Below are positions 16,451 through 33,302 of a DNA stretch of 64,000 nt, one piece after another. Source of the DNA: Limnohabitans sp. 2KL-17 (lineage in GTDB: Bacteria > Pseudomonadota > Gammaproteobacteria > Burkholderiales > Burkholderiaceae_C). The stretch lies in contig NZ_NESK01000014.1 in NCBI RefSeq assembly GCF_003063415.1, forward strand, positions 1 to 64,000, in the 5' to 3' direction. The position numbers and the translations under genes were made by a program. The stretch's first letter is position 1. Every line of letters begins with the position of its first letter. The notes under the pieces were generated by a model that searched no databases, was not told where the DNA came from, and was given only the letters and a program-made list of their open reading frames with translations.

Positions 16451-17680
16451 ATGCGGCACAGCCCAGCCTTGCGCGACGGTCACCAGATCCGCTTGATCGA
16501 AGGTGGGCAAGCCTATTTTGAATCGTTGGTGGCGGCGCTGGAGCAGGCGCGCTCGCAAGTGCAGATCGAAACCTATATTTTTGACTTTCATGGCGCAGCC
16601 GCCATGGTGGCCGAGGCCTTGGAGCGGGCCGCTTTGCGGGGCCTGCGTGTTTGGGTGGTGGTGGACGGCGTGGGCACCCCTGGTCTGCCGCCCGAATGGC
16701 GTGAGCGTTTTGAACGTGCCGGCGTCGACTGGCGCGTGTACTCTCCCCTTGGCACTTGGGGCTTGTTGATCCCCAGCCGCTGGCGACGCCTGCACCGCAA
16801 ACTGTGCGTGATCGATGGCCACCTGGCTTTTTGTGGCGGCATCAATATTCTGGACGACTGGTACGACCCGCACCATGGCGCCTTGCATCAGCCCCGGCTT
16901 GATTTTGCGGTTTGTGCACGTGGCGCTTTGGTGCAGCAAATGCAGGAAACGATGTCGCAGCTTTGGTGGCGCATTCAGGGCGTGCGCCATGCGAGGGAGC
17001 AACAGTTTCCCAAGGCTTTCAGCTCTTTCAGGGCGGCGGGTCTGCATTTGCCTTGGACGCGGCAAGATGCCCATGCCTTCGAAGCCCACTTGGTGGCCAA
17101 GGCCGGTTTGCTGCTGCGGGACAACGTCTTGAACCGCAGCCAAATCGAGCGTGCGTACCTGAAAGCGATTGGCCTTGCCCGGCATGAAATCGTCATTGCC
17201 AACGCTTATTTTTTGCCAGGCCGCCGTCTTCGAAAAGCCTTGATCCATGCCGCGCAAAGGGGCGTGCGGGTGCGCTTGCTGTTGCAGGGGCGCTATGAAT
17301 ACTTCATGCAATACCACGCAGCCCGCCCGGTTTATGGCGTGCTGCTGGCGGCGGGCATTGAAATCCATGAGTACAAGGCCAGTTTTTTGCATGCCAAAGT
17401 GGCCGTGATCGACCCGCACAATGAGCGGCCCTGGGCCACAGTGGGCTCATCCAATCTGGACCCGCTCAGCTTGCTGCTGGCGCGTGAGGCCAATGTGGTG
17501 GTGGCTGACAAAGCTTTTGCGCAACAGTTGTACCAGCGTTTGAGCATGGCCATTGAGCAACAAAGCACCCCGGTGGTGGCTGCGGTTTACACCCAAAGGC
17601 CCTGGCACCAAAGGCTGCGTGACCGGGTGGCGTTTGGTTTGATGCGTTTGGCCTTGTTTTTGACCGGTAACCGCTATTGA
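16451..17680 (+). CDS. clsB: Cardiolipin synthase B
   Basis: A 409-residue phospholipase D superfamily protein with both HKD motifs: HRKLCVID then GGINI near residue 117, and HAKVAVID then GSSNLDPLS near residue 315. It lacks the N-terminal transmembrane helices of ClsA, fitting the ClsB type, which joins phospholipid head groups to make cardiolipin at the inner membrane. The start at 16451 follows the EEP gene stop by two bases, giving an apparent nudB-EEP-clsB operon. Confidence 0.92.
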   Translation: MRHSPALRDGHQIRLIEGGQAYFESLVAALEQARSQVQIETYIFDFHGAAAMVAEALERAALRGLRVWVVVDGVGTPGLPPEWRERFERAGVDWRVYSPLGTWGLLIPSRWRRLHRKLCVIDGHLAFCGGINILDDWYDPHHGALHQPRLDFAVCARGALVQQMQETMSQLWWRIQGVRHAREQQFPKAFSSFRAAGLHLPWTRQDAHAFEAHLVAKAGLLLRDNVLNRSQIERAYLKAIGLARHEIVIANAYFLPGRRLRKALIHAAQRGVRVRLLLQGRYEYFMQYHAARPVYGVLLAAGIEIHEYKASFLHAKVAVIDPHNERPWATVGSSNLDPLSLLLAREANVVVADKAFAQQLYQRLSMAIEQQSTPVVAAVYTQRPWHQRLRDRVAFGLMRLALFLTGNRY

Positions 17681-17759
17681 CCCGTGAGCAACCCCCGCCC
17701 GACATGGGACTTATGTCGCAGGTGGCGCAGGGTCTTTAATCGCTGTTACGATTCCGACT

Positions 17760-18494
17760 ATGTTTATAAATGCCCCAGACGCCATGACTGCATCTGCTGC
17801 CTCGCTTGAAGACGAAGGCGTTCCTGTTTCCGTGAAGATCCGCGAACGCATCCATGCATCCCGCAAACGCTTCCATGCCAACGACAACATTGCCGAGTTC
17901 ATCCAGCCCGGCGAATTAGATAAGCTGCTGGATGAAGTCACGGCCAAGATGGCCGGTGTCCTCGACAGCTTGGTGATCGACACGGTGAACGACCACAACA
18001 CCGGCGATACCGCCCGGCGTGTGGCCAAGATGTACCTGAAGGAAGTGTTCAAGGGCCGCTACACAGAAGGCCCCGAGATCACTGAATTCCCCAACGCCGA
18101 GCACCTCAATGAGTTGATGATCGTTGGCCCCATCACCGTGCGCAGTGCCTGCAGCCACCATTTTTGCCCAGTGATCGGCAAGATCTGGATCGGGATCATG
18201 CCCAACGAGCACACCAACGTGATTGGATTGTCCAAGTACGCCCGTCTGGCCGAATGGATCATGGGTCGGCCTCAGATCCAGGAAGAAGCCGTGGTGCAAC
18301 TGGCTGACCTGATCCAGCGTAAAACCCAGCCCGATGGCCTAGCCATCGTCATGGAAGCCAGCCACTACTGCATGGGCTGGCGCGGCGTGAAAGACATGGA
18401 TAGCAAGATGATCAATTCGGTCATGCGCGGTGCATTCCTCAAAGACGTCAATTTGCGTCGTGAATTTTTGGCCTTGATTCCCGGAAGGAGCTGA
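17760..18494 (+). CDS. folE: GTP cyclohydrolase I
   Basis: FolE, 244 residues, converts GTP to dihydroneopterin triphosphate, the first step of folate synthesis. Zinc-binding Cys and His lie in SACSHHFCP (about residue 130), followed by NVIGLSKYARL and the second zinc Cys region SHYCMGWRGV. The N-terminus up to about residue 35 is variable, and ATG codons at 17760 and 17784 are both possible; the first is used. The BLUF gene begins four bases after the stop, which suggests a two-gene transcript. Confidence 0.95.
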   Translation: MFINAPDAMTASAASLEDEGVPVSVKIRERIHASRKRFHANDNIAEFIQPGELDKLLDEVTAKMAGVLDSLVIDTVNDHNTGDTARRVAKMYLKEVFKGRYTEGPEITEFPNAEHLNELMIVGPITVRSACSHHFCPVIGKIWIGIMPNEHTNVIGLSKYARLAEWIMGRPQIQEEAVVQLADLIQRKTQPDGLAIVMEASHYCMGWRGVKDMDSKMINSVMRGAFLKDVNLRREFLALIPGRS

Positions 18495-18497
18495 TCC

Positions 18498-18920
18498 ATG
18501 TTGGTACGCCTGCTTTACGCCAGCCGCACGGTTGATCCCCGGGTCGAAACCATCGATTCGATTTTGGCTCATTCCCGCCAGTTCAACCCCAGCACGGGCA
18601 TCACCGGCATCCTGTGCTACGGTGGTGGTATCTTCTTGCAAGCCATCGAAGGCGGGCGCCAGGCGGTCAGCGATCTTTACGGTCATATCCAAAAAGACCC
18701 GCGCCACAAAGAAGTGGTCTTGCTGCATTACGAAGAAATTTCAGAGCGCCGCTTTGGTGGTTGGACCATGGGCCAGGTGGACACCTCTCGGGTCAATACC
18801 AACATCTTGCTCAAATATTCTGAGCGGGCCGAGCTAGACCCGTACAACGTGTCAGGCAAAGTCTCTCTGGCCTTGCTCGAAGAGTTGATGGCCACCGCTT
18901 CCATCATCGGGCGCGCTTAA
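18498..18920 (+). CDS. BLUF-domain blue-light sensor
   Basis: A 140-residue single-domain BLUF protein that should bind FAD and sense blue light. The photoactive residues are in place: Tyr7 (LLYASR), Asn30 (RQFNPSTGITG), Gln48 (GIFLQAIEG), and Trp89 and Met91 (GGWTMGQ). Apart from a C-terminal helix of about 40 residues there is no output domain, so it probably acts by protein contact. It lies four bases after folE and is followed by a strong terminator. A 5'-truncated second copy lies at 26898-27110. Confidence 0.93.
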   Translation: MLVRLLYASRTVDPRVETIDSILAHSRQFNPSTGITGILCYGGGIFLQAIEGGRQAVSDLYGHIQKDPRHKEVVLLHYEEISERRFGGWTMGQVDTSRVNTNILLKYSERAELDPYNVSGKVSLALLEELMATASIIGRA

Positions 18921-18935
18921 AAACCCTCTCACCGC

Positions 18936-18956
18936 AAGCCCCGCAAGGGGCTTTTT
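18936..18956 (+). terminator. Rho-independent terminator after folE-BLUF
   Basis: A perfect seven-base stem AAGCCCC / GGGGCTT with a GCAA loop is followed by TTT, 16 bases after the BLUF stop. It separates folE-BLUF from the downstream EamA transporter. Confidence 0.85.
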
Positions 18957-18963
18957 CACGCCC

Positions 18964-19845
18964 ATGCCCCTGAGTGCGCTTGCGTTGGTCGTTCTGGCAG
19001 GCTTGATCCATGCCTGCTGGAACATCGCCGCCAAAAAGGCCGGGGGCGATGTGCGCTTTGTCGGGTTCACTTCGGTGGTGATGATGGTGTTCTGGGCGCC
19101 CGTGGGTTTGTGGGCGGCCTGGCAACAGGCGCCGGCCTGGGGCCTGGTGGAGTGGGCGCTTGTGCTGGCCAGCGCCTTGTTGCACGTGGGTTACTTCATT
19201 GTTTTGTTGCGTGGCTACCGACAGGCCGATCTGACGGTGGTTTACCCGCTGGCGCGGGGCTCGGGGCCGTTGCTGTCATCGATGGTGGCCATTGTTTTTC
19301 TGGGTGAGGAAATTTCCTCGCTCGGCCTGGTGGGCATTTTGGGCGTGGTGGGCGGCGTGTTTTTGATTGCGGGCGGACCTGACCTTTGGAAAGCGGCGCA
19401 CGAGCCGCATCGGAGGGCGAGGGTGCGCACTGGCATTTTTTATGGCGCCTTCACGGGTCTTTTCATTGCCAGCTACACCGTGGTCGATGGTTATGCCGTA
19501 AAGGTGGCGCTGATGTCGCCCATCCTGGTTGACTATTTGGGCAACCTGGTGCGCTTTGTGTTGTTGCTGCCGACGTTGCTGCGCGATCGCCCGGCGGTCT
19601 GGGCCCTGTGGCAGCAGCAGCGCCCCTACGCGCTGGTGGTTGGTATTTTCAGTCCGGTTTCTTATGTGCTGGTGCTTTATGCCATGCAGGTGGCACCACT
19701 GTCCCATGTGGCGCCGGCACGAGAAGTTTCCATGCTGTTTGCGGCCCTGCTGGGGGGGCACTTGCTGGGCGAAAAAGACCGGGGACTGCGGGTCGCTGGG
19801 GCCGCACTGATCGCATTGGGCGTGATGGCCCTGGGGGTGGGTTGA
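18964..19845 (+). CDS. EamA/DMT-family transporter
   Basis: A 293-residue inner-membrane protein with about ten hydrophobic helices arranged as two EamA repeats. Family landmarks include VLAGLIHACWNIAAKK in the first repeat, VVYPLARGSGPLLSSMVAI at its end and VAPARE...LLGGHLLGEKD near the C-terminus. Drug/metabolite transporters of this group export amino acids or metabolites; no substrate is evident. It has no copy in unit B, where BLUF and DUF429 remnants lie only four bases apart. Its stop is one base before the DUF429 start. Confidence 0.88.
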   Translation: MPLSALALVVLAGLIHACWNIAAKKAGGDVRFVGFTSVVMMVFWAPVGLWAAWQQAPAWGLVEWALVLASALLHVGYFIVLLRGYRQADLTVVYPLARGSGPLLSSMVAIVFLGEEISSLGLVGILGVVGGVFLIAGGPDLWKAAHEPHRRARVRTGIFYGAFTGLFIASYTVVDGYAVKVALMSPILVDYLGNLVRFVLLLPTLLRDRPAVWALWQQQRPYALVVGIFSPVSYVLVLYAMQVAPLSHVAPAREVSMLFAALLGGHLLGEKDRGLRVAGAALIALGVMALGVG

Positions 19846-19846
19846 C

Positions 19847-20671
19847 ATGAACGCATCGCCATTGATCGGTTGCGATTTTTCCAGCAGCCCCTCCAAACGA
19901 AAACCCATCGTGCTGGCGCTGGGTCAGTCCCGCCAGGGCAGAGTCCAGTTGCAAGCGCTGCAAAGCTTTGAAACACTTGCAGCCTTTGGTAACTGGTTAA
20001 CGCAGCCCGCCGATTGGGTGGGAGGTTTTGATTTGCCATTCGGCTTGCCGCGCGAGTTGGTCGAGACACTGGGCTGGCCCACCAATTGGGCTGCTTGCAT
20101 GGACCATTACTGCGCGCTGGACCGCGCACACGTTCGTGACCAGTTTGCCGCCTTTTGCAACGCCCGCCCGGTGGGTGGAAAATTTGCGCACCGCGCTGCC
20201 GACAAACCCGCAGGTTCCAGCCCCTCCATGAAATGGGTAAACCCGCCCGTGGCCTACATGCTGCATGCCGGGGTGCCGTTGCTTAGGCAAGCGGGGGTGC
20301 ATTTACCGGCTTTGCAAAATGGCGATCAGCGCCGCGTGGCGCTGGAAGCCTACCCTGGTTTATTGGCGCGCGAGGTGCTGGGCAACCGCAGCTACAAAAG
20401 CGATGACAAAGCCAAGCAAACCCCAGAGCGCCTGCTGGCCCGGCGTGAGTTGCTCGGTGCCCTTGAGCGAGGCGAGACCCGCTTAGGCCTGCGGCTGGTC
20501 GCCAGCAACGCGCTGCTGGGCCGCCTAGCTGATGACGCCAGCGGCGACGCACTCGATGCCACCTTGTGCCTGATGCAGGCGGCCTGGGCGCAACAACAGC
20601 ACGCAGCCGGTCACCCGCAATACGGCTTGCCAGCGTGCGACCCTTTGGAAGGGTGGATTGTCACGGCTTGA
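19847..20671 (+). CDS. DUF429 domain protein
   Basis: A 274-residue DUF429 protein. An N-terminal IGCDFSSSPSKRKPI segment looks like an RNase H-type first strand with Asp. A GGFDLPFGLPREL motif (about residues 58-70) follows, then the conserved EAYPGLLAREV. Members are predicted nuclease-like or metal-binding proteins with no firm function. It follows the EamA gene by one base. The second copy at 27115 has lost the middle third including the FDLPFG motif. Confidence 0.85.
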   Translation: MNASPLIGCDFSSSPSKRKPIVLALGQSRQGRVQLQALQSFETLAAFGNWLTQPADWVGGFDLPFGLPRELVETLGWPTNWAACMDHYCALDRAHVRDQFAAFCNARPVGGKFAHRAADKPAGSSPSMKWVNPPVAYMLHAGVPLLRQAGVHLPALQNGDQRRVALEAYPGLLAREVLGNRSYKSDDKAKQTPERLLARRELLGALERGETRLGLRLVASNALLGRLADDASGDALDATLCLMQAAWAQQQHAAGHPQYGLPACDPLEGWIVTA

Positions 20672-20673
20672 TC

Positions 20674-20698
20674 TGTGGGAGTCGCGTCCTCGCGACTC
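20674..20698. repeat. REP-like palindrome
   Basis: TGTGGGAGTCGCG-TCCT-CGCGACTC: an eight-base perfect stem GAGTCGCG / CGCGACTC (20679-20698) preceded by TGTGGGAG, just after the DUF429 stop. This resembles repetitive extragenic palindromes common in Pseudomonas and relatives. It could also act as a 3' stabilising hairpin, as no T-run follows. Confidence 0.5.
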
Positions 20699-20706
20699 AT
20701 AAATGG

Positions 20707-20825
20707 TGTCAGGTAAGTATGAGTGAGGGTGTTTGCCGTTCTGCCAAGCCCGAGGAGTCTTGTAATGTAATTGGTTGTGCAAAATTTTTAAGAAAGTGGC
20801 TGTGCTGATCACGGTTAACCTGACA
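20707..20825. repeat. Small element with inverted TGTCAGGT ends
   Basis: TGTCAGGT at 20707-20714 and its complement ACCTGACA at 20818-20825 bound a 119-base non-coding stretch directly after the REP-like palindrome. GTGTCAGGT strings flanking REP-associated (Y1) transposase genes in other genomes suggest a non-autonomous remnant. With only eight matching bases this could be chance. Confidence 0.25.
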
Positions 20826-21268
20826 TTTGCCCAATGTTCAAGCATATTTGGCAATGCCACTTGCATTTGAGACAAAGAGCATTTGCTTCTGGATCGGGCA
20901 AAGCTCACTTGAAGATCATGATCCCGCTCGAACTCACGATACCAGCCAATTGGGGAATTTTCTCCCAGGTAACCTGACTGTCAGAAAGTCACACCAAGAG
21001 GCTTACCAAGCTTGGTACAGAGCAAGACCGCTTGGGTTCCGTCTTCGTTCAAATATACGAACCACCACAAATTCGACCAAGTGATTGTTTACACCCCGCC
21101 TTGGTTGTTTATTCGGCCGTGAGGCTTTTACGCCATCCGTAGCCCATGACCGGGTTGATCTTTGATGCGCTTCGTACTTGGAGACAATGAACACATATAG
21201 TTACAAAATTTTTTATTAAATAAATTTAATACATTAATATTGCCCCTGGAGGTTTCTTTCATCAGATA

Positions 21269-21329
21269 GCCTGACCCGGCAGTCGAAACTAAATTCGCTA
21301 AAGCGGGCGTCCCACTTATCACGTTAGCC
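21269..21329 (+). other. Degenerate attC-like site upstream of sodC
   Basis: GCCTGAC at 21269-21275 (one mismatch to RYYYAAC) and GTTAGCC at 21323-21329 (one mismatch to GTTRRRY) are separated as in a 61-base attC. Complementarity of the two arms is only partial. It lies about 40 bases before the sodC start, where a cassette boundary would be expected. The call leans on the clear attC sites at the same relative place in unit B. Confidence 0.3.
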
Positions 21330-21369
21330 GTCAACAATTGAACTTCGGTTCATCTCAAGTAGGAATTAC

Positions 21370-21891
21370 ATGAAGAAAATCTTGTCCGCATTGGCATTCA
21401 TTGCTGTTGGTGCATCGGCAATAGGCGCAGAGATTACGGTTTTCATGAGCGTGGCGCAAAAGGAAGGGGTAGGTGCCCCTGTAGGCACCGTTCGCATTGT
21501 TGAAACTGCCTATGGGCTGGCCTTCTACCCAACGCTCAAGGCGCTGCCATCTGGGTTGCATGGATTCCATATCCACGAAAATCCGTCTTGCGCAGCAGCT
21601 GAAAAGGATGGTTTGATGGTTCCCGCATTGGCGGCGGGAGGTCATCTTGATCCCAAGGGAACGAAAAAGCACGGCGAGCCGTGGGCGGACGGGCATCTTG
21701 GCGATTTGCCATCTCTGTATGTGGCAGCTGACGGTACCGCAGTGAGTCCGGTGCATGGGCCGAGGTTGAGAATTGGCGACGTGAGAAATCGATCGCTGAT
21801 GATTCACGCCGGTGGCGATAACCACGCCGATCACCCAATGCCCCTTGGAGGTGGCGGTGCCCGTGTAGCGTGCGGAGTGATCGACGGCTGA
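21370..21891 (+). CDS. sodC: Cu/Zn superoxide dismutase family protein
   Basis: A 173-residue exported Cu/Zn superoxide dismutase. The signal peptide [20 protein letters not shown] is followed by the copper-ligand motif [10 protein letters not shown], the AGGHLDP and KHG histidines, GHLGDLP, and [17 protein letters not shown]. The C-terminal [12 protein letters not shown] signature is intact. SodC removes superoxide in the periplasm. It occupies the slot between DUF429 and DinB that in unit B is filled by two integron cassettes, and it is flanked by weak attC-like sequences. Confidence 0.93.
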
Positions 21892-21898
21892 CCCAGCA

Positions 21899-21962
21899 AT
21901 CCAACGAACTTGCGCGAAAAGCCGAGCAGACTGGTCTGTTCGCTCATACCCAAGAGTTGCAC
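21899..21962 (+). other. Degenerate attC-like site downstream of sodC
   Basis: ATCCAAC at 21899-21905 fits RYYYAAC exactly and GTTGCAC at 21956-21962 has one mismatch to GTTRRRY. Inside, CTTG and CAAG pair next to the outer boxes, and a small hairpin around CAGACTGGTCTG is central. It begins eight bases after the sodC stop and ends two bases before the DinB start. The site is weaker than those at 28637 and 29657. Confidence 0.3.
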
Positions 21963-21964
21963 CA

Positions 21965-22458
21965 ATGAAGTCCCTCGAAACACTTTTCGCTCAAAAGTCA
22001 TGTGCTAACAATGAACTGTTCAATGCATTGGCAGCCATCCCCGACGATGCGCACGCTGAAGCCATCACTAAAGCATCCGGACGCTTAATCACATCTTCGT
22101 GGTTGATCACATCTTTCGGGCGCACCTGTGTTGACAGCAGCACCATGACACGGCAACCAATACCAAAGAAAAGCCTGAACTCAGCCAGCTGCATTTCTCG
22201 GTGAGTGAAACAGATGCTTGGTACTTGCAATACGTCAAGCAATTACCGGCAAGCGAGATCGATCAGGTGATTCGATTCAGTTTCACCGATGGCGATACCG
22301 GAGAAATGACAAGAGAAAAAATGCTCCTCCATGTCATCACGCATGGCGCTTATCACTGGGGCAATGTGGAGCAAATACTCAAGTCCATTTCTGTGGCACC
22401 CCTGCGTGACCACCTCACCAAATATCTTCATATTTCTGAGCCAGAGAGAGGGTGGTAG
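21965..22458 (+). pseudogene. DinB-family protein, copy A (frameshift plus nonsense)
   Basis: The broken copy of the intact DinB-family gene at 29751-30245. It starts in frame (MKSLETLFAQKS), but one base is missing near 22068-22078 relative to copy B, shifting the reading to another frame. There a TGA also replaces the copy B codon in CAC-CTG-TGT-TGA. The C-terminal part (AWYLQYVKQLPAS to the end) is still well preserved. DinB proteins are four-helix, metal-binding, thiol-transferase-like enzymes. Confidence 0.88.
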
Positions 22459-22460
22459 AC

Positions 22461-23006
22461 ATGATGCACACTGCTGTTTTAGTCATTGACGTACAACAAG
22501 GTCTGTGCTAAGGCCCTGACGCCGCGCACGACTGCCCCGGCACGATTGCGCGCATCAACTCAGTCACGCACCGGGCACGCGCTGCGGGCACTCCGGTATT
22601 CTTCATTCAGCACGAGTCGAGCGCAGGCTATCTGGTGCACGGCAGCCGAGAGTGGCAATTGGCGACAGGCTTGCAGGTGCAGGCGGGCGATCGGCGCATT
22701 CGCAAGACGACACCAGACGCTTTCTCGCGCACAGAGCTGCACGAGGCTTTGCAAGCTCTGGGTGTCCAGAATTTGGTGGTTTGCGGCAGGCATACCGAGT
22801 TTTGTGTGGATACCACCACGCGCAAGGCTTTGGCGCTGGGCTATCCGGTGATGTTGGTGTCTGATGCGCACACCTCGGCAGGCAATGCGGCCATCGGCCC
22901 GCAACAGGTCATTGCGCACCACAACGCCACGCTGACCAACATCTCCAGCTTTGGCCCTAGGGCCAAGGCTATTGCGCACGATGCAGTTCGTTTTTTGGCA
23001 GATTGA
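22461..23006 (+). pseudogene. Isochorismatase-family hydrolase, copy A (premature stop)
   Basis: A cysteine hydrolase gene otherwise open in one frame but interrupted by TAA at 22509-22511 (codon 17), where the intact copy B has GAA. Everything after it (GSREWQLATGLQVQ, VCGRHTEFCVDTT) is preserved. Internal initiation could give a fragment lacking the first strand with the conserved IDVQ Asp, so the enzyme is probably dead. Confidence 0.88.
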
Positions 23007-23048
23007 CCAGCGTCATGAGAATCTTGTCTTGAATGGTTGCACACCAGC

Positions 23049-23585
23049 ATGCAAATAACCCAGCTCACCGTCGCACATGCAATGGCCTACAAGGCCTTGA
23101 TGTTGTATGCCTACGAGCATGCGGCCGATGCATTCACGTCCACGCCTCAAGAGCGCGCATTGGAGCCGCACAGTTGGTGGCGCAGCCGCGTCGATGAGCC
23201 TTCAGGGCTGATATGGGTGTGGGGTGCTTTTGCAGGGGCTGAACTGGTGGGCACGGTGTCCGTCGAGTACACCGTAAGAACCAAAACACGCCACAAAGGT
23301 TTGATCGTTGCCATGTTTGTGCATGAAAATTTTCGTGGCCAAGGCCTGGCCCGAAAACTGATGTGTGCAGCTGTTGAGCATGGCATGGCACGCCAAGGCC
23401 TTCGCGTGCTACAGCTCGTAGTGACACAAGGCAATGCCCCCGCAGAGCATCTCTACCAAAGTCTGGGTTTTGAGTCTTTCGGGGTGGAGCCCATGGCTGT
23501 TTGTACGCCTGACGGATACCGATCCAAAGTTCACATGTGGTTGGATTTGACGTCAATGGGCGCTCGCATGAGTCAACCTTCTTGA
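23049..23585 (+). CDS. GNAT-family N-acetyltransferase, copy A
   Basis: A 178-residue GNAT acetyltransferase. The acetyl-CoA-binding motif A reads VHENFRGQGLARKLM (about residues 95-109) and the C-terminal motif is ...HLYQSLGFESFG. The acceptor substrate is unknown. The ATG at 23049 (MQITQLT) matches the start of copy B. The first about 110 residues differ from copy B at roughly one in six positions, while the last about 65 are identical, because a conversion tract starts at base 23379. Confidence 0.88.
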   Translation: MQITQLTVAHAMAYKALMLYAYEHAADAFTSTPQERALEPHSWWRSRVDEPSGLIWVWGAFAGAELVGTVSVEYTVRTKTRHKGLIVAMFVHENFRGQGLARKLMCAAVEHGMARQGLRVLQLVVTQGNAPAEHLYQSLGFESFGVEPMAVCTPDGYRSKVHMWLDLTSMGARMSQPS

Positions 23586-24169
23586 ACAGATCGCCATGAA
23601 GACCAAGAATCCCATCTTGTCCACGGCAGTCCGAGAAGCCGCTCGCCGCAGTGTCTTGTGCTGGCTGGCCACGGTGGACGCCGACGGTCAGCCCAATGTC
23701 TCACCCAAAGAAGTCTGGGCCATCGCGGACGAGCAGCATGTGGTGGTGGCTCATATCGCATCGCCTGTGACGGCACGCAACATCCGTCAGCAGCCGCAAG
23801 TGTGCCTGAGCTTTGTCGATGTGTGGGTGCAAAAGGGCTTCAAGCTGATCGGCACAGCCCATGAGGTCTGTGCCGATGACCAGGCCTTTGCAGCATGCGC
23901 CTCGCCCCTGTTGGCCATGGCGGGGCAGCGCTTTGTCATCCGCGTCACTTCCGTGGCCGCCATCTTGGCACCCGGCTATCAGTTTTTCCCGAATGAGACC
24001 AGCGAGACTTCGCAAATCGAAGGGGCCATGCGCACTTATGGTGTGCTGCCCATGGCCTGAGGCCGCAAGCGGACACGTCGCCACTGCACAAGCCGTTACG
24101 ATAGCCCACACCCATTCAGGAAATACAAATGACGACACAAGTTTTTGTGGTGACCCACGCCAAGGACGC
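23379..24169 (+). repeat. 791-base perfectly conserved tract, copy in unit A
   Basis: From base 23379 (3' third of GNAT) through the whole PPOX gene and the start of the cupin gene, the sequence matches 31166-31956 base for base at a fixed offset of 7787. The flanking parts of the two units differ at many positions. The last difference before the tract is at 23378/31165 and the first after it at 24170/31957. Confidence 0.88.
23596..24060 (+). CDS. Pyridoxamine 5'-phosphate oxidase-like flavoprotein, copy A
   Basis: A 154-residue split-barrel (PPOX-like) protein with the usual start region CWLATVDADGQPNVSPKEVW and a middle VCLSFVDVWVQKGFKLIG. Family members bind FMN or F420 and reduce small molecules; the substrate is unknown. 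It starts ten bases after the GNAT stop and is translated to exactly the same protein as the copy at 31383. Confidence 0.88.
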   Translation: MKTKNPILSTAVREAARRSVLCWLATVDADGQPNVSPKEVWAIADEQHVVVAHIASPVTARNIRQQPQVCLSFVDVWVQKGFKLIGTAHEVCADDQAFAACASPLLAMAGQRFVIRVTSVAAILAPGYQFFPNETSETSQIEGAMRTYGVLPMA

Positions 24170-24527
24170 ACGGTTCGAGAAAGGGCTGCGTTCCTTTTTT
24201 GAGTACCGCGATCTGGGCATGAAGGCAGCGACCGGTGGGCGTGTGACGGCCAGCGTGATCCGCGCTGCAGGCAGCCATGAATTTTCCAGTCAGCCGCACC
24301 TTCACAAAATGCAGTTTCAGTTGGTCTATGTGCTCAAGGGCTGGATCGAGTTTGAGTACGAAGGGCAGGGTGTTGTTCGGCTTGAGGCTGGCTCGTGCGT
24401 GCACCAACCGCCCGAAATCCGCCACCGTGAGTTGGGGCACAGCCATGATGTTGAGTTGTTGGAGGTGGTGCTGCCTGCCGACTTCGATACCGTGACGGTG
24501 AATGACGTCAATCCGAAAGAGGCTTGA
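24129..24527 (+). CDS. Cupin-domain protein, copy A
   Basis: A 132-residue single-domain cupin. The metal-binding motif 1 region is HLHKMQFQLVYVLKGWIEFE, and motif 2 is CVHQPPEIRHRELGHSHDVELLE. Its function (dioxygenase, isomerase or sensor) cannot be assigned. It is the first gene in which copy A again differs from copy B after the identical tract. The SbmA-like gene starts four bases after the stop. Confidence 0.82.
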   Translation: MTTQVFVVTHAKDARFEKGLRSFFEYRDLGMKAATGGRVTASVIRAAGSHEFSSQPHLHKMQFQLVYVLKGWIEFEYEGQGVVRLEAGSCVHQPPEIRHRELGHSHDVELLEVVLPADFDTVTVNDVNPKEA

Positions 24528-24531
24528 GCCG

Positions 24532-25071
24532 ATGTTTCGCAGTTTTTTTCTTTCGCGTCGTTGGGCTTTGTGGGCTTGGGGTGGTTTGCTGGTGTTGGTG
24601 GCAATGGTCTTCATCACGGTGCAGCAGACCGTGAAGCTCAACTCCTGGTATGGCGAGTTCTATGACTTGTTGCAAAAGCCCGAGCAGGCGGGCGGGGTCG
24701 AGAAGTTCTGGGGCTTCATGCTGCAATTTGCGTGGATCGCTTTTCCTTACATGTTGCTGCGCAGCCTGGAAACTTATCTGGCCTCGCACTACGCATTTCG
24801 TTGGCGTCAGGCCCTGACCGAGGTGTACCTGCCGCGCTGGCAGCGCACCGACGCAACGGTGGAGGGCGCTTCGCAGCGCATTCAGGAAGACTGCATACGT
24901 TTTGCCCGTCAGACCGAAAACCTGGGGCTGGGGTTGGTGCGGGCGGTGCTCACCTTGGTGTCTTTCATCCCGATTTTGTGGTTGTTGTCCAAAGGCATGG
25001 CCATTACGGATAAGCATTTCAACCACATGAGGCCAAGTATCGCCCCTTGGAAGAGCCCTCAACCCACGTAG
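24532..25071 (+). pseudogene. SbmA/BacA-like peptide transporter, copy A, truncated by IS91
   Basis: The first about 157 codons match the intact copy at 32320, down to the LSKGMAI segment. From base 25004 the sequence changes abruptly to IS91-flanking DNA, and the frame ends after some 20 unrelated residues. Half of the transmembrane region is lost, so the product should not work. Confidence 0.88.
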
Positions 25072-26897
25072 AAACCCGCGCCGCGCCCGCAGCAAGGCCG
25101 TGCCTGGCCGATCCACCGCAAAATTCACTGTTCACAAGAGGAATTAGCGGTGCGCCGGGTATGCCAGGCGCAGGCCTAGCCGGCAGCAAGTCAAAATCGC
25201 CGCCTCAACCCCTCACCAACTGATGCGCTGATCAACCTCAAAGTCCGGTGCCGCTTGCTCCGCCAGATCCCAATCGGGCTCCATGTGCACCCCGTCATCC
25301 GTCTGCGCATCGCAGTCATCCCACAGCGGTGGCCCGCGCGCCGGTGCTATGTGTGGTGGCTCGGAGTCCACCCCGATGTGATCGAGGATCTTCCTGATCT
25401 GCGTGCCCTCGGTAATGAATGCGATCAGGCGCATCTGCCCACCGCACATTGGGCACAGCAGCGGGAACACTTCGTAGATGCGGGCGATCAACACCGCCCA
25501 CAGGTAGTGCGCCGGTGAACGCTTGGGCGGCGCAGGCTCGGGCGTGGGTGGGACCGCGTTGCCCGGCACCACCCCCCCCGGCGCGCCCTCGCTCATGTTG
25601 GCTGGCTCGGTTTGCCTCGTAAGCGGTTGTGCCAGCGCCGTCACCGCAGCCCTGTGCGGCGAACTCGGGGCCAATACACCAAAATAGCGATGCCGGTGGG
25701 TGCGCGGCGGTGGCACCAGCGCCGCAATGCGGGCTATCAGTTCCAGCGGTGTGAGGTGCAACTCGTCGACCTTGGCACCACGCTTGTCGGAGCCAGGCTC
25801 GCTGTGCTGTTTGGCGCAGCGGTACACCTGGCCAGAGCCCTCTTTGCGCAGGCGTTCACAAGCAAAGGGTGGGCGGGCGCAGTAGCGCAGCAAGCGCTCC
25901 AGCGCGGCGCGGTCGTGCGCTTCGATGCACACACCCGCATCGACTGAGAAACCGCTGTGTTTGTAGGCCAGCATTTCTTTGGCCTCGAAACTCTCCAGCA
26001 GACCTCGGCCCACGAAGGCGCGCAGAATGCGTCGGTGCAAATCAGTCTGTACCTGGGCCACAGCGGTCTCGTCGATCGCACTGGCCGGGTGAAAAGCGAT
26101 GCCCGGCACTTCCTCAAACACCCCATCGACCGCGCACACATGGAAGTGCACATGCTCATTGAGGCTGGAGCCAAACCTGTGGATGAAGGCGACTGCGCCG
26201 ATGTGCAGCGTCGCCTTGTCCACATTTACCGCACCTGGGCTGTGGGTCTGCAGGCTTTGCGCGATGACCCGCAATAAGATGCGCAGCACCATGTTGAGCA
26301 CTGCCCCGTCACGCTGCATGAAGTAGCGCAGCCGCTTTGGCACCGGCAACACCCACTGGCGCACCGGCAGACGCGGAAAGACGTGATCCGTCAGGTGCGC
26401 CGCCGTCTCCACCATGCGTCGCGTGTTGCACGAGGGACAGACGCCACGGCCTTTGCAGGAATAGGCGACAAAGTAGTCGTGCCCGCAATCGTCACACCAC
26501 GCCCTGGCAAAGCCGTGGGCAAAGATGCCGCATTCGAGGTACTTGCGAAACGCTTGACGGACGTAGGGCTTGGGGGTGCGATGGTCGCCCTGCCCGTCAA
26601 ACTGGCCTGCGCTGGCAAGTTCATGCCAAGTCTCGAAGTGCTCGGCTATGGTTTGGTATAGCAGCGTGCGCTCGGGGTGGCGCGGGTTGTAGAGTTTGGG
26701 CTTTGCACCCGCTTGTCCGCCCGCGTGTGAATGCGAGTGCGTTGGGCGGGCAGTGGCGGGCATGGGGCAGTGCCAGCGTGGGCTGGGTGCCCGATCATAC
26801 TGGGGTTATATCCAGCTTCATCGCGGGCAAAGCCAACCACTGGGCGCGCCAAATACTCCTGATTTGATAGTTGCTTGCGCACATTCCACGAGGGCTT
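25004..26897 (-). mobile_element. IS91-family insertion element
   Basis: The limits are taken from the points where the two duplication units stop matching: 25003 in the SbmA-like gene on the left and 26898 in the BLUF gene on the right. One transposase gene on the minus strand lies inside, with about 200 and 130 bases of non-coding end sequence. IS91 elements move by rolling-circle transposition, lack terminal inverted repeats and can mobilise adjacent DNA. The exact ends were not proven. Confidence 0.8.
25213..26763 (-). CDS. IS91-family transposase (HUH/Y2)
   Basis: A 516-residue transposase. An N-terminal zinc-binding region (CDDCGHDYFVAYSCKGRGVCPSCNTRR, split as two Cys groups) is followed by the Y2 transposase domain with the HUH-like motif EHVHFHV near residue 230. 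The basic C-terminal part has a further Cys pair (LCPMCGGQM). Such enzymes nick single-stranded DNA during rolling-circle transposition. The frame is complete with no visible lesion, so the element may be active. Confidence 0.93.
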   Translation of the reverse strand: MPATARPTHSHSHAGGQAGAKPKLYNPRHPERTLLYQTIAEHFETWHELASAGQFDGQGDHRTPKPYVRQAFRKYLECGIFAHGFARAWCDDCGHDYFVAYSCKGRGVCPSCNTRRMVETAAHLTDHVFPRLPVRQWVLPVPKRLRYFMQRDGAVLNMVLRILLRVIAQSLQTHSPGAVNVDKATLHIGAVAFIHRFGSSLNEHVHFHVCAVDGVFEEVPGIAFHPASAIDETAVAQVQTDLHRRILRAFVGRGLLESFEAKEMLAYKHSGFSVDAGVCIEAHDRAALERLLRYCARPPFACERLRKEGSGQVYRCAKQHSEPGSDKRGAKVDELHLTPLELIARIAALVPPPRTHRHRYFGVLAPSSPHRAAVTALAQPLTRQTEPANMSEGAPGGVVPGNAVPPTPEPAPPKRSPAHYLWAVLIARIYEVFPLLCPMCGGQMRLIAFITEGTQIRKILDHIGVDSEPPHIAPARGPPLWDDCDAQTDDGVHMEPDWDLAEQAAPDFEVDQRISW

Positions 26898-27110
26898 TAA
26901 GAAGTGGTCTTGCTGCATTACGAAGAAATTTCAGAGCGACGCTTTGGTGGCTGGACCATGGGCCAGGTGGACACCTCGCGGGTCAATACCAACATCTTGC
27001 TCAAATATTCCGAGCGCGCCGAGCTGGACCCTTACAACGTGTCGGGCAAAGTCTCGCTGGCCTTGCTCGAAGAGTTGATGGCCACCGCGTCGACCATCGG
27101 GCGCGCCTGA
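26898..27110 (+). pseudogene. BLUF protein fragment, copy B
   Basis: The last about 70 codons of the BLUF gene (from KEVVLLHYEE to the end) follow the IS91 element directly. The 5' half with the flavin-binding Tyr, Asn and Gln is gone, so no photoreceptor can be made. Most differences from copy A are synonymous. The next remnant, DUF429, starts four bases after the stop; the EamA gene and terminator of unit A are absent. Confidence 0.9.
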
Positions 27111-27114
27111 GCCG

Positions 27115-27696
27115 ATGCAGCTCATCGGCTGCGACTTTTCCAGCAGCCCCAGCAAACGCAAACCCATCGTTCTGGCGCTGGGCCAGGCCCGCCCGGTGGG
27201 TGGCAAATTTGCGCACCGCGCTGCCGACCGGCCCGCAGGTTCCAGCCCCTCCATGAAATGGGTCAACCCGCCCGTGGCCTACATGCTGCACGCCGGGGTG
27301 CCTTTGCTCCGGCAAGCGGGTGTGCATTTGCCGGGTTTGCAAAACGGCGATCAGCGTCGCGTGGCCCTGGAAGCCTACCCTGGCTTGCTGGCCCGTGAGG
27401 TGCTGGGCAACCGCAGCTACAAAAGCGATGACAAAGCCAAGCAAACTCCCGATCGCCTGCTGGCACGGCGCGAGTTGCTCGGTGCGCTGGAGCGCGGCGA
27501 GACCCGCCTGGGCCTGCGCCTGGTGGCCAGCAACGCCCTGCTGGGCCGCCTGGCTGACGATGCCAGCGGCGATGCGCTCGATGCCACCCTGTGCCTGATG
27601 CAAGCGGCCTGGGCGCAGCAGCAGCACGCAGCCGGTCACCCGCAATACGGCTTGCCGCCGTGCGACCCGTTGGAGGGGTGGATCGTGACGGCCTAG
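27115..27696 (+). pseudogene. DUF429 protein, copy B, with internal in-frame deletion
   Basis: A 193-codon version of the DUF429 gene at 19847. Relative to copy A it lacks 78 residues (after LALGQ, before ARPVGGKFAH), which removes the GGFDLPFGL motif. The break lies at CCCGCC-type repeats found at both ends of the lost segment in copy A, so a short-homology deletion is likely. The frame is kept, so a shortened protein might still be made, but loss of a core motif argues against function. Confidence 0.82.
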
Positions 27697-28036
27697 GCTT
27701 TGATTTCAGCCGCCCCCATGTCTTTGGTGTGACTCATCGGGCCATTCGAATAGGTTGACCGTCGAGCAAAAAACGAATTTATTAGGGGTAATTTTTATAA
27801 TTTTTGAGGCTATAGTGCATATGCCGTACCCGCTCGTTTACATGATCGAGTCAGCGGGTGGACTGCAAAAAAGGGGCACTGGGTTTCATGACAAATTTAT
27901 ACCTGTATGGAATCGCAAAGGATGAGCCTGTAGGCAAATACGCAAGCGGCTTGCGGGCATTTCATCCAAAAAATGTATCTACTGTGCCCGGATGTATCCA
28001 CCGGGTTATGCGGTCTACATTACGTTAGGCAAAGCC
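27697..28036. other. AT-rich stretch before the integron cassettes
   Basis: About 340 bases, clearly more AT-rich than the neighbouring genes. It contains a TATAAT at 27796-27801 without a good -35. A short open frame from 27888 (MTNLYLYGIAKDEP...) has no recognised homology and runs on into the cassette. A CCCGG / CCGGG hairpin lies near 27987-28005. It ends at a GTTAGGC core site. No integrase fragment was seen on either strand. Confidence 0.55.
28024..28030 (+). other. Integron recombination core site GTTAGGC
   Basis: A perfect GTTRRRY core lies seven bases before the ATG of the first cassette gene, exactly where the cassette boundary should be. No matching RYYYAAC partner was found upstream, so this is either an attI-like simple site or the 3' half of a decayed attC. 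Confidence 0.6.
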
Positions 28037-28642
28037 ATGGACACCCCCGAAGAAAAATATCAGCGCATGGCAATGGCCATGCAGAAGGTTGCGAGTGAAC
28101 TCAAAGGTGAAAGCGAGCGCGGGTGCGTAGTTTTGGCGTTCGCGTGGATGGACGACCAACTGACCAACAACCTCAGAAAGTTCCTTCTACCGTCAGCGCA
28201 ACAATCCGCAAAAGCAGATGAGCTTCTCGGCGTCGGTCGCCCTGTAGGCGACGCCGCCGCCAAGATTGATCTCTGCTTACGTCTCGGGCTTTTGCATCAA
28301 CACACGCACAAGAGCCTCCACATGTTCAGGCGTTTGCGCAACGATTTCGCTCACATGGCCTCCGATATTTCTTTCTCCACGCCGAGCATCCACGATAGGG
28401 TACTAGCCATTTTCGACAACGAAGAGCCCGTAATACGATCCTTGTGGGAGTCGATTGTTCAAGACCCAGAGGTACGGGCTGCCACGGAGCATAACCGCAA
28501 CAAAAGCGGCCCTCACATACTTCGCACCGCCCTTGGCACTCGCAGCCTGTTCGAGCAGACGGCAGCATCACTTGTCGCCGGGCTCATATCAATCGAATAT
28601 GCCCTCACTCCAATCAAACCACCAGGGCGCGTAAATGCCTAA
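28037..28642 (+). CDS. MltR-like protein encoded by an integron cassette
   Basis: A 201-residue soluble protein. The segments VVLAFAWMDDQLTNNLRKFL, GVGRPVGDAAAKIDLCLRLGLL and HMFRRLRNDFAHM resemble the MltR (mannitol operon repressor) family, whose members are all-helical and not classical DNA-binding repressors. The role here is unknown. The start at 28037 is preferred because the cassette core site lies just upstream; longer frames cross it. The stop lies within the RYYYAAC box of the following attC, as is typical of cassette genes. Confidence 0.7.
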   Translation: MDTPEEKYQRMAMAMQKVASELKGESERGCVVLAFAWMDDQLTNNLRKFLLPSAQQSAKADELLGVGRPVGDAAAKIDLCLRLGLLHQHTHKSLHMFRRLRNDFAHMASDISFSTPSIHDRVLAIFDNEEPVIRSLWESIVQDPEVRAATEHNRNKSGPHILRTALGTRSLFEQTAASLVAGLISIEYALTPIKPPGRVNA

Positions 28643-28753
28643 CTGTGCGGTCAAGCGGACGCCAACACTGGCCATGGCTTCGCCATTTTCATGGCCAGCA
28701 TCGGCGCCCTGTGCCCTGTCGGGCTTCGGCGCCGCTTACCTTGGGCGTTGGGC
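28637..28753 (+). other. attC site of integron cassette 1
   Basis: GCCTAAC (28637-28643) and GTTGGGC (28747-28753) fit the RYYYAAC and GTTRRRY cores. Next to them TCAAGCGG and CCGCTTA pair, as the inner boxes do in many attC sites. The 117-base interior holds further hairpins (CTGGCCATG / CATGGCCAG and a GGCGCC pair). The extrahairpin-type imperfect pairing is what integron integrases recognise. Confidence 0.82.
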
Positions 28754-28782
28754 GTCACTTGGAAGCAGCTGAGCGAACAAAC

Positions 28783-29655
28783 ATGATTTGTCTCCCTGAA
28801 TGGCTCACATGGTCAAACGCAGCCAGCTTTTTCAACTCCGCTTTCACCACTTCGCTTATTGGAGCTCTCGCGGGAGCGTATGCAGGTGCTCGGGCTGCGC
28901 AGAAGATCACTGAGCGCGCGAAGGAGCGCGAACAGCTGATTTCTCAAATACGTGCAACGAACGCTGCAACGATGGTCGCCTTTTCGGCTTTCAACGCAGG
29001 AGCCGCCCTGAAAAAGCAGCACGTTCAGCGAATGTATGACGAGTTCGAGAATGCCAAGGCCAAGCTGAATGCATACAAGGCTGAGCGAGCTACCGGACAG
29101 CGTCAGGGAAATGCGGAGTACGTTTTCACGGCTGACATGCGCACCTTCTCCGCACCGCTGGCGCCAATCGAGACACTCAAGGATCTCGCTTTCAACAAAC
29201 TTTCTGCGTATGGCCGACCGCTTGCGCTTGTCTCTGTGCTTGAGCAGTCTTTTATTGGGCTACGAGAAGTCATCTCGAAGCGTGATGCACTCATTCATCG
29301 GTTTGCCAGCGGCCATATCTCCAAGGAGCTAGTTCACAACTACTACTTCGGCCAGAAGTTGCCGAGTGGCGATACAAACCAAGAATTTCCTGATTTGGTT
29401 TTTGCCATTCACAGCTACGTGGACGACATAATTTTCTTCGGCTCACTGCTATGCGGCGACCTAGTGGCTCACGGCAACAGCGTCCATGAGGAATATACCA
29501 AGCGGTTCCGCAAAGGGGCACCGAATGTCAGCACCGTGGATTTCAGTGGGCTTCGAGAGAAGGGAATCATTCCCTCAGACAGTCAATACACCGATTGGCT
29601 AAACGCATTTGTGAAGCAGGATTTCAATTCCAAGAATGCAGGTAGCCAACAGTGA
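28783..29655 (+). CDS. Membrane-anchored protein of unknown function, integron cassette
   Basis: A 290-residue protein not recognised as any family. An N-terminal hydrophobic segment (FTTSLIGALAGAYAGARAAQ, about residues 20-40) should anchor it. It is followed by a charged helical, probably coiled-coil stretch (KITERAKEREQLISQI and on to about 110) and a soluble remainder. The ATG at 28783 lies 30 bases after the attC of the previous cassette, and the stop is one base before the next attC. Codon use looks less GC-biased than in flanking genes, fitting horizontal origin. Confidence 0.7.
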   Translation: MICLPEWLTWSNAASFFNSAFTTSLIGALAGAYAGARAAQKITERAKEREQLISQIRATNAATMVAFSAFNAGAALKKQHVQRMYDEFENAKAKLNAYKAERATGQRQGNAEYVFTADMRTFSAPLAPIETLKDLAFNKLSAYGRPLALVSVLEQSFIGLREVISKRDALIHRFASGHISKELVHNYYFGQKLPSGDTNQEFPDLVFAIHSYVDDIIFFGSLLCGDLVAHGNSVHEEYTKRFRKGAPNVSTVDFSGLREKGIIPSDSQYTDWLNAFVKQDFNSKNAGSQQ

Positions 29656-29656
29656 T

Positions 29657-29725
29657 GCCCAACCCTTCAATCGAGAGGACTTGCCCCGGCAAGCCGGGTC
29701 AAGCCTCTCATCTCAAACGTCAGAC
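29657..29725 (+). other. attC site of integron cassette 2
   Basis: GCCCAAC (29657-29663) fits RYYYAAC exactly. The 3' box GTCAGAC (29719-29725) has one mismatch to GTTRRRY. Between them a strong imperfect palindrome is seen: GAGAGG...CTTG...CCCGG against CCGGG...CAAG...CCTCTC. The 69-base size and the TCAA / TTGA flanking pairs match common environmental attC sites. The altered 3' core may block further recombination. Confidence 0.82.
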
Positions 29726-29750
29726 CTACTTAAACCCACGATTCGCAACC

Positions 29751-30245
29751 ATGAACTACCTCGAAACACTCTTCGCTCAAAAGTCATGGGCCAACCATGA
29801 GCTGTTCAATGCACTGGCAACCATCTCCGAGGATGCGCACGCAGAAGCCATTACAACTGCTATTCGCACGCTGAATCACATCTATGTGGTGGATGAAATT
29901 TTTCGGGCACATCTGTGCGGACAGCAACACCGGTACACGGCAACCAATACCCCGGAAACGCCGGAACTTGGTCAATTGCATTTCTCGGTTGCAGAAACGG
30001 ACGCTTGGTACTTGCAATACGTCAAGCAATCACCGGAAAGCGAGTTCGGTCAGTCCATTCGGTTCCGCTTTACCGATGGCGATGCCGGTGAAATGACAAA
30101 AGAAGAAATGCTCCTCCATGTCATCACGCATGGCGCCTATCACCGGGGCAATTTGGGTCAAATTCTCAAGTCCATTTCTGTGGCACCCCCGCGTGACCTT
30201 CTCACCAAATTTCTTCATGTCACCGAGCCAGAGAGAAGGAGGTAA
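29751..30245 (+). CDS. DinB-family protein, copy B (intact)
   Basis: A 164-residue DinB/YfiT-type four-helix protein. The three metal-ligand positions typical of the fold can be placed at LNHIYVVDEIFRAHL (His near residue 43) and HVITHGAYHRGNLGQIL (two His near 130). Members act as thiol-dependent transferases or hydrolases. The start at 29751 (MNYLETLFAQKSW) matches copy A; the frame is open upstream through the attC but that is not translated sense. It sits five bases before the isochorismatase gene. Confidence 0.9.
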   Translation: MNYLETLFAQKSWANHELFNALATISEDAHAEAITTAIRTLNHIYVVDEIFRAHLCGQQHRYTATNTPETPELGQLHFSVAETDAWYLQYVKQSPESEFGQSIRFRFTDGDAGEMTKEEMLLHVITHGAYHRGNLGQILKSISVAPPRDLLTKFLHVTEPERRR

Positions 30246-30250
30246 GCATC

Positions 30251-30805
30251 ATGCATTCTGCTGTTTTGGTCATCGACGTACAACAAGGCCTGTGCGAAGG
30301 CCCCGATGCCGCGCACGACTGCCCTGGCACGATCGCACGCATCAATGCGGTCACGCAACGGGCACGCGCTGTTGGCATTCCTGTGTTTTTCATCCAACAC
30401 GAATCTAGCGCGGACTATCTGGTGCACGGCAGCCGCGAATGGCAATTGGCGACAGGTTTGCAAGTGCAAGCCAGTGATCGGCGCATTCGCAAGACCACAC
30501 CCGATGCATTTTTGCGAACAGAGTTGCACGGTGCATTACAGACCTTGGGCGTTGAGGACTTGGTGGTTTGCGGCATGCACACAGAATTTTGTGTGGACAC
30601 CACCACGCGCAAGGCACTGGCGTTGGGCTATCCGGTGTTACTGGTGTCCGATGCGCACACCTCGGCAGGCAATTCGGCCATCAGCCCGCAACAGGTGATT
30701 GCGCATCACAACGCAACATTGACCAACATCTCCAGCTTTGGCCCCAGTGTCACGGCGATTGCGCACGATGCTGTTCGATTTTTGACTGATTTGCCAGCGC
30801 CATGA
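30251..30805 (+). CDS. Isochorismatase-family cysteine hydrolase, copy B (intact)
   Basis: A 184-residue cysteine hydrolase. The catalytic Asp lies in VLVIDVQQGLCEG (residue 9), a Lys in RIRKTTPDAF and the nucleophilic Cys in VVCGMHTEFCVDTT (about residue 118). Family members hydrolyse isochorismate, nicotinamide or other small amides; the exact substrate is unknown. The gene is intact, unlike copy A with its codon-17 stop. Confidence 0.92.
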   Translation: MHSAVLVIDVQQGLCEGPDAAHDCPGTIARINAVTQRARAVGIPVFFIQHESSADYLVHGSREWQLATGLQVQASDRRIRKTTPDAFLRTELHGALQTLGVEDLVVCGMHTEFCVDTTTRKALALGYPVLLVSDAHTSAGNSAISPQQVIAHHNATLTNISSFGPSVTAIAHDAVRFLTDLPAP

Positions 30806-30835
30806 AAATCTTGTTTTGATGGATCGCACACCAAC

Positions 30836-32314: not shown

Positions 32315-32319
32315 GACAG

Positions 32320-33276: not shown

Positions 33277-33287
33277 TCCAGCCAAGG
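33266..33287. terminator. Possible bidirectional terminator hairpin
   Basis: CCTTGGC and GCCAAGG form a perfect seven-base stem with an eight-base loop across the stop codon of the SbmA-like gene, in the 26-base gap to the convergent SulP gene. No T-run follows on either strand, so efficiency is uncertain. Confidence 0.4.
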
Positions 33288-33302
33288 ATTCGCGACGACC
33301 AT

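Follow-up and report, generated by a model that had tools for sequence, protein, structure and literature searches.

How could two neighbouring copies of a gene block that have drifted far apart come to share hundreds of bases without a single difference? This question is raised by a 64,000-nucleotide stretch of DNA (the window) from Limnohabitans sp. 2KL-17, which covers positions 1 to 64,000 of contig NZ_NESK01000014.1 on the forward strand. Bases 23379–24169 of one block, referred to here as block A, are identical at 791 of 791 positions to bases 31166–31956 of a second block, block B, at an offset of 7787. A first-pass annotation of the sequence had ascribed this identity to recent gene conversion or recombination rather than to selection. 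Our analysis supports a recent homologous exchange, and suggests that the exchange could have been the event that created the tandem.

Two gene blocks in tandem

Block A occupies positions 18498–25005, an IS91-family element 25006 to approximately 26896, and block B 26899–33276. The assigned genes of the two blocks lie on the forward (+) strand. Block A begins with an intact BLUF gene (18498–18920; Pfam PF04940), the 3′ part of which (18709–18916) is repeated at 26899–27106 in self-comparison. It is followed by an EamA transporter gene (18964–19845; PF00892), which by gene-order comparison is present in block A and absent from block B, a DUF429 gene (19847–20671; PF04250), and a Cu/Zn superoxide dismutase gene (21370–21891; PF00080) that has no self-match in block B. 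The next two genes are broken: the DinB-family gene (21967–22458) has several stops and a one-base frame change relative to its counterpart in block B, and the isochorismatase gene (22464–23018) has two early in-frame stops. The remaining genes are a GNAT gene with an open frame, of which the 3′ part lies within the tract (23049–23585; PF00583), a PPOX-like (PNPOx_N) gene entirely within it (23596–24060; PF01243, assigned on the identical copy B), a cupin gene with an open frame (24129–24527; PF07883, assigned on copy B), and an SbmA/BacA-like gene (24532–25005; PF05992, profile positions 2–151 of 315) that is cut by the IS91-family element at 25005/25006.

Block B starts with a BLUF 3′ fragment (26899–27110; 93% to block A over 212 columns) and a shortened DUF429 gene (27115–27696). 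The latter matches 19865–19934 and 20162–20667 of block A and scores 21.2 bits, slightly under the Pfam cut-off of 23; its internal deletion of approximately 230 bases is in frame and has a 7-base overlap at the joint (27187–27193). Two genes at 27992–29655 have no counterpart in block A, and neither has a Pfam match at E 0.001. Intact DinB-family (29751–30245; PF05163 on the open frame 29652–30245, with its ATG at 29751) and isochorismatase genes (30251–30805; PF00857) come next, followed by the GNAT (30836–31372; PF00583), PPOX-like (31383–31847; PF01243) and cupin (31916–32314; PF07883) genes. The block ends with a complete SbmA/BacA-like gene (32320–33276; PF05992, profile positions 2–314 of 315), which runs into chromosome whose gene order is conserved in relatives. 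Ahead of the DinB gene of block B, positions 29652–29740 form a hairpin-like stretch (translated ...NPSIERTCPGKPGQASHLKR...) that, we presume, resembles a cassette attC site. DinB, GNAT and isochorismatase genes are typical cassette genes. An Rfam scan of positions 17000–34000 gave no match at gathering thresholds.

The IS91-family element between the blocks (25006–26896, reverse strand) is ISPps1-like, and its right end is uncertain by approximately three bases (26896–26899). Its transposase gene (25213–26763) is an open frame of 516 codons and encodes a Y2_Tnp domain (PF04986, 2.7e-37) and a Zn_Tnp_IS91 domain (PF14319, 7.9e-18), the HUH Y2 and IS91 zinc domains, respectively. The left end at 25006 is well defined, as the element starts at the same position beside 12 other distinct and unrelated flanks, and the right end stops at the same position, within approximately three bases, beside unrelated flanks in three genomes (G036, G251 and G056). 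In its own genome the element gave a single match. Its left end adjoins the break in SbmA of block A and its right end the break in BLUF of block B. Because these flanks belong to different genes, the site is a junction and not a simple insertion. The parts add up to the repeat period: 1627 bases of block A, 1891 of the IS91-family element, 2 further bases and 4267 of block B give 7787.

Which end of the element is oriIS and which terIS was judged from where each lies with respect to the ORF rather than from function. On this purely positional basis, block B begins (26899) beside the transposase-5′ end, and SbmA ends (25005) beside the transposase-3′ end, which is the layout of captured DNA. 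IS91 elements target the tetranucleotides GTTC or CTTG at the oriIS end. Here the flank at that end reads CATT, and among the 12 other flanks GTTC, followed by T, occurs in two (L096 and L122), with no consistent tetranucleotide. The last bases at the transposase-5′ end (26853–26896) resemble a short sequence that is dispersed among genomes of the family, 57 of 399 having matches, at least some of them isolated (e.g., G434 and G304). This sequence may be a small non-autonomous element with the same end, or a repeat that the IS91-family element has taken up.

An identical tract between diverged copies

The tract comprises the 3′ part of the GNAT gene, a spacer, the PPOX-like gene, a second spacer and the first 41 bases of the cupin gene. 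Exact comparison returned it as a single maximal run, in agreement with the first-pass annotation, which had described a base-for-base match at constant offset that includes the spacers. Only one other exact direct repeat of at least 60 bases is present in the window, a 68-base satellite of the tract (24228–24295, identical to 32015–32082). Differences outside the tract are indeed frequent. In gapped alignments, blocks A and B differ at 211 of 1369 columns (15.4%) on the left, with a one-base gap at 22074, and at 118 of 710 columns (16.6%) on the right, from beyond 24295 up to 25005. Synonymous divergence (dS) is 0.31 in the part of GNAT left of the tract, 0.57 in the right part of cupin, and 0.81 in SbmA.

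Chance does not account for the identity. A substitution-density scan and a recombination test had been proposed in the first-pass annotation, and permutations in two forms both rejected chance. Of 2996 aligned columns (22010–25005), 334 differ; when these were permuted 20,000 times, no run of identity exceeded the maximum of 126 bases, against the 791 observed. In a three-way comparison that begins at 23038 and includes G029, the one relative aligned across the whole tract, blocks A and B are identical at 97 consecutive variable columns, against a maximum of 23 in 50,000 permutations.

The identity could alternatively be held in place by selection, through extreme constraint on the PPOX-like gene and its spacers. 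We found no support for this reading, which is hardly credible and is ruled out by how freely relatives differ within the tract. Both copies differ from G029 at 97 of 791 positions (12.3%) and from each other at none, and the differences from G029 are spread over the GNAT end, the PPOX-like gene and the spacers alike. Other relatives with matches of at least 380 bases to the tract are 72–82% identical to it. None of the 154 PPOX codons differs between blocks A and B. Left of the tract (23038–23378), A and B differ from each other at 41 of 341 positions and each differs from G029 at 38 of 341, so that the two are equidistant from this relative in the left part of GNAT. Outside the tract, blocks A and B are approximately as unlike as copies from different Limnohabitans species.

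With chance and constraint both failing, exchange between the copies is the explanation, and a recent homologous exchange between blocks A and B as the origin of the tract is well supported. The first-pass annotation was therefore right to prefer exchange over selection; the conversion that it named is not told apart by these data from a crossover that may have founded the tandem.

The edges of the tract

The two edges of the tract are dissimilar. On the left, blocks A and B differ at 23354, 23364, 23373 and 23378 and nowhere thereafter, and the edge is sharp to a few bases. It follows a mild dip in divergence, with 12 differences in the 139 bases just left of the tract (8.6%), compared with the 211 of 1369 of the left flank overall. 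The right edge is stepped: positions 24170–24227 hold 5 differences in 58 bases, 24228–24295 none in 68, and ordinary divergence then resumes (32 of 205). The sharp edges that had been described at both ends thus hold at 23378, where the change is abrupt after the dip, and not at 24170, where the edge is a mosaic across 126 bases.

This zone on the right (24170–24295 in copy A, partner 31957–32082) has 5 differences in 126 bases, or approximately 4% between A and B, compared with 16–28% between A and 30 relatives, which indicates that it too is partly homogenised. The ratio of divergence in the zone to that in the next zone is 0.25 for A and B; none of 435 pairs of relatives is as low, the lowest being 0.29. 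Mutation that came later and fell uniformly would be unlikely to place five differences in 126 bases beside none in 791 (P = 5e-5). A stepped edge of this kind would result from patchy repair of heteroduplex DNA, or from two events that overlapped.

Dating the junction and tracing the two blocks

The truncated SbmA gene of block A points to a young junction. It carries 15 silent and 2 replacement A-specific changes, where neutral change would give a silent to replacement ratio of approximately 1:2.9 (P = 1.2e-7); the B-specific changes are 19 silent and 9 replacement. Changes were polarised where at least 60% of relatives shared one state, which left 25 of the 70 SbmA differences unpolarised. 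The pattern implies that the gene was whole and under selection through most of the A–B divergence and was cut recently, and hence that A and B diverged before the present junction formed. Separate lineages are the most likely setting for that divergence, although the SbmA pattern alone is no proof. Lineage-specific changes (silent/replacement) number 15/9 for A and 34/8 for B in isochorismatase, and 25/3 and 7/1 in DUF429. The left part of GNAT, with 5/10 for A and 8/5 for B, shows that constraint was not uniform over block A.

Gene order was compared in the 29 of 36 relatives that have both BLUF and DUF429 matches. An EamA gene lies between the two, as on the left of block A, in 15 of the 29, and is absent from the other 14, so this position is exchangeable. 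The compact BLUF-TGA-NNNN-ATGCAG junction on the left of block B is found in 7 of the 29, and the remaining 7 lack EamA but have longer spacers. Together, the SbmA pattern, the open IS91 reading frame and the gene orders favour two lineages that were joined recently.

Phylogenetic trees fit less easily with two separate lineages. Segment trees were built with relatives whose best match spanned at least 85% of the segment (11 rows for isochorismatase, 7 for the left part of GNAT, 30 for the right part of cupin, 32 for SbmA, 29 for BLUF and 31 for DUF429); DinB and the tract had one qualifying relative each and gave no tree. Blocks A and B are sisters in DUF429 (support 96, starred), the BLUF fragment (87.6) and isochorismatase (77/82). 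The right part of cupin has a support of 99.9, in a segment that includes the partly homogenised zone. In SbmA, A and B are separated, though without significance (AU p 0.21), and neither placement is favoured in the left part of GNAT (AU p 0.35). The sister trees imply that the donor, if any, was an unsampled close lineage, or that the copies share a later origin, and they argue against a distant donor. The DUF429 result in particular is hard to square with the most straightforward interpretation of the EamA difference.

If A-left and B-right were resident, and B-left and A-right foreign, a phylogenetic switch would be expected across the tract. Neither the six segment trees nor the nearest relatives window by window displayed one; the genus is too star-like, and the comparison had no power to detect a switch. 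In 400-base steps, the best relative is mostly 80–91% identical and changes every few hundred bases, and the base composition of the block parts is uninformative on which are resident and which foreign. The best whole-tract match among relatives is that of G029 (85.8%). No closer match, and no donor, is among the matches listed when block B was compared with 90 genomes of the genus and the tract with 399 of the family, the genome itself included, with few candidates scored per genome. A scan of named genomes with the PPOX protein gave four loci, three of them in Limnohabitans. None of 40 relative loci (36 relatives) has a second copy of the isochorismatase, GNAT, PPOX, cupin or SbmA gene. Other repeats of at least 150 bases are present at three of the 40 loci.

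A crossover that may have founded the tandem

Taken together, these observations suggest a history in which the blocks diverged separately and were joined recently through the arrival of a foreign block with an IS91-family element, the tract being the site of the founding crossover. We regard this history as evenly poised between right and wrong. Beyond the recent homologous exchange, which the alignments demonstrate, we infer with decreasing confidence that one block is foreign, that it arrived as a circle, and that the crossover founded the tandem.

The foreign DNA would have consisted of one block and the IS91-family element, in its simplest form a 7787-bp circle, which entered the cell and underwent a single crossover with the resident block at the tract, in the GNAT-PPOX-cupin region. 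The product would read, from the left, resident left half, identical tract, and foreign right half, which stops within the cut SbmA gene, then the IS91-family element. To the right of the element would follow the foreign left half starting with the truncated BLUF gene, the identical tract again, and the resident right half with its complete SbmA gene. Repair of gaps and of heteroduplex DNA where the crossover took place could have made both copies of the tract identical and left the patchy zone on the right. Homologous exchange between sequences that are 15% apart should be a rare event. Through the 791-base direct repeat that is now present, RecA could excise the 7787-bp insert again.

A circle of this kind could have been produced by IS91 rolling-circle transposition that read past terIS, which would join oriIS to SbmA and leave the captured block on the terIS side. 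The part of PMC9330008 available to us describes how transposition of the IS91 type involves a single-stranded circle and how cleavage that occasionally falls beyond the ter end takes flanking DNA along, and the accessible text of PMC9376610 places terIS at the 5′ boundary and oriIS at the 3′ boundary. By this convention, as far as that text gives it, terIS is the end that faces block B and oriIS the end that faces the SbmA break, as the capture model requires.

The founding crossover is favoured by the combination of identity without constraint, a mosaic right edge, a young junction between old copies, the gene orders, IS91 ends at both breaks, a period that sums to 7787, and single-copy relatives. 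Against it stand the missing switch and the A–B sister pairs in the trees, the lack of a donor, the 10 replacement and 5 silent changes in the left part of GNAT of block A, and the inconsistent oriIS target. A still fuller account would be a complete natural IS91 capture between species. An element in the BLUF gene of a related Limnohabitans would have rolled past its terminus, taken 5.9 kb of chromosome with it as a 7.8-kb circle and been rescued in a new host by one homologous crossover; the tract would be the scar, and intact DinB and isochorismatase genes would have been supplied beside decayed resident ones. We consider this account as a whole less likely than not and offer it tentatively.

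Other histories of the locus

The tandem could also have formed by another route, such as recombination between two IS91 copies, one located in SbmA of one chromosome and the other in BLUF of incoming DNA, with ordinary intrachromosomal conversion of approximately 0.8–0.9 kb from one block onto the other following later, perhaps as two overlapping events. This is the reading of the first-pass annotation, and we hold it to be a serious possibility that falls somewhat short of even. It would yield an identical tract with a stepped edge just as well; the 5 differences in 126 bases next to none in 791 would be accounted for if two events had differed in age, and the tract length lies within measured bacterial conversion as given in the available portion of PMC5485169. 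It needs more events than a single crossover, however, and only one copy of the IS91 element is present in the genome. The junction itself looks recent, which leaves less time for a separate conversion. Conversion also appears in a second alternative, an old tandem duplication inside this lineage that drifted in place and had its middle re-homogenised. The sister positions of A and B in the DUF429, BLUF and isochorismatase trees speak for it, as do the broken DinB and isochorismatase genes and the relaxed left part of GNAT in block A. Despite the trees, the signs of purifying selection in the cut SbmA gene speak against it, and so do gene orders that differ between A and B and are each found in other species; the open IS91 reading frame and the absence of a second copy of five block genes from all 40 relative loci weigh against it as well, and we judge it improbable.

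Finally, the tract might be a collapsed or mis-copied repeat, given that the assembly is a 3.5-Mb draft in 111 contigs. Both copies lie on the same contig, and the middle segment leaves and re-enters the direct repeat, which by reasoning permits only one path; the tandem is therefore independent of long reads. In the same assembly a longer tandem repeat was kept within one contig: C19 (L140:191–11668) carries two rRNA operons in direct tandem, 5714 bases long and 99.98% identical, with one mismatch. A collapse, moreover, would not erase approximately 15% divergence over 791 bases and yet keep both unique flanks. In view of the repeat topology and the resolved rRNA tandem, an artefact is very unlikely. 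When five relatives were checked, two of them, G010 and G036, also showed two 16S genes at similar spacing; a single one was seen in G006 and in G021, and one together with a partial match in G009.

The founding crossover thus remains our preferred reading. If it is true, an IS91-type circle with ordinary genes was caught by homologous recombination across approximately 15% divergence in a freshwater bacterium. It would also mean that a stretch of identity shared by diverged copies does not have to be the product of later conversion, and can be the very crossover from which the tandem arose. If the tract is no more than a product of conversion, the locus is ordinary bacterial biology. The first-pass account of the tandem units stands in so far as it invoked exchange, but it lacked the cause, namely the IS91-family element where the two blocks meet, and the divergence of these blocks before they came into their present arrangement.

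Comparison with known systems

The event is of a known kind, and the anatomy of this locus is unusually readable and complete. Searches of the literature on Limnohabitans genomes, insertion sequences and horizontal gene transfer returned nothing that names the locus. Within the literature searched on IS91 with tandem duplication or rolling-circle transposition, available to us in part, no such case was found.

A close measured parallel for the tract is conversion between the duplicate tufA and tufB genes of Salmonella. In the available part of PMC5485169, the mean walk in a mismatch-repair-deficient background is approximately 500 nt in either direction, and tracts are shorter with repair. These walks make a tract of 791 bases plausible, although the tuf genes are nearly identical. 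As in tufA/tufB, an identity tract of several hundred bases lies between duplicates, and its length is in the measured range given there. Unlike the tuf pair, which differs at 12 sites according to the same text, blocks A and B are approximately 15–17% apart, lie in tandem with an insertion sequence between them, and are each broken at one end.

For the architecture of the tandem, Campbell-type integration is a close model. When circular DNA integrates by a single crossover, a direct repeat flanks the insert and the crossover lies inside the repeat. The present locus likewise has a direct repeat around the presumed insert, with the putative crossover within it. It departs from the model in that no vector or phage is seen, and the insert would be a chromosomal block with an IS91-family element.

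Resistance genes are the setting in which PMC9330008 and PMC9376610, in the portions available to us, treat IS91/ISCR capture. In common with the systems described there, the locus has a transposase of the IS91 family, an element with sharp ends, putatively captured DNA on the terIS side, 5′ of the transposase gene, and oriIS at a novel junction. It differs from them, as far as those portions go, in that the genes are ordinary chromosomal genes instead of resistance genes, no target tetranucleotide is seen, and the circle and its transposition are read from the arrangement. The element itself is close to ISPps1: its transposase is approximately 78% identical, over 97%, to plasmid-encoded proteins annotated as such, and its terminus, ACGGATA..., is common to related elements in the same bacterial family. 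By sequence it is nevertheless a separate element, the comparison being with annotated proteins.
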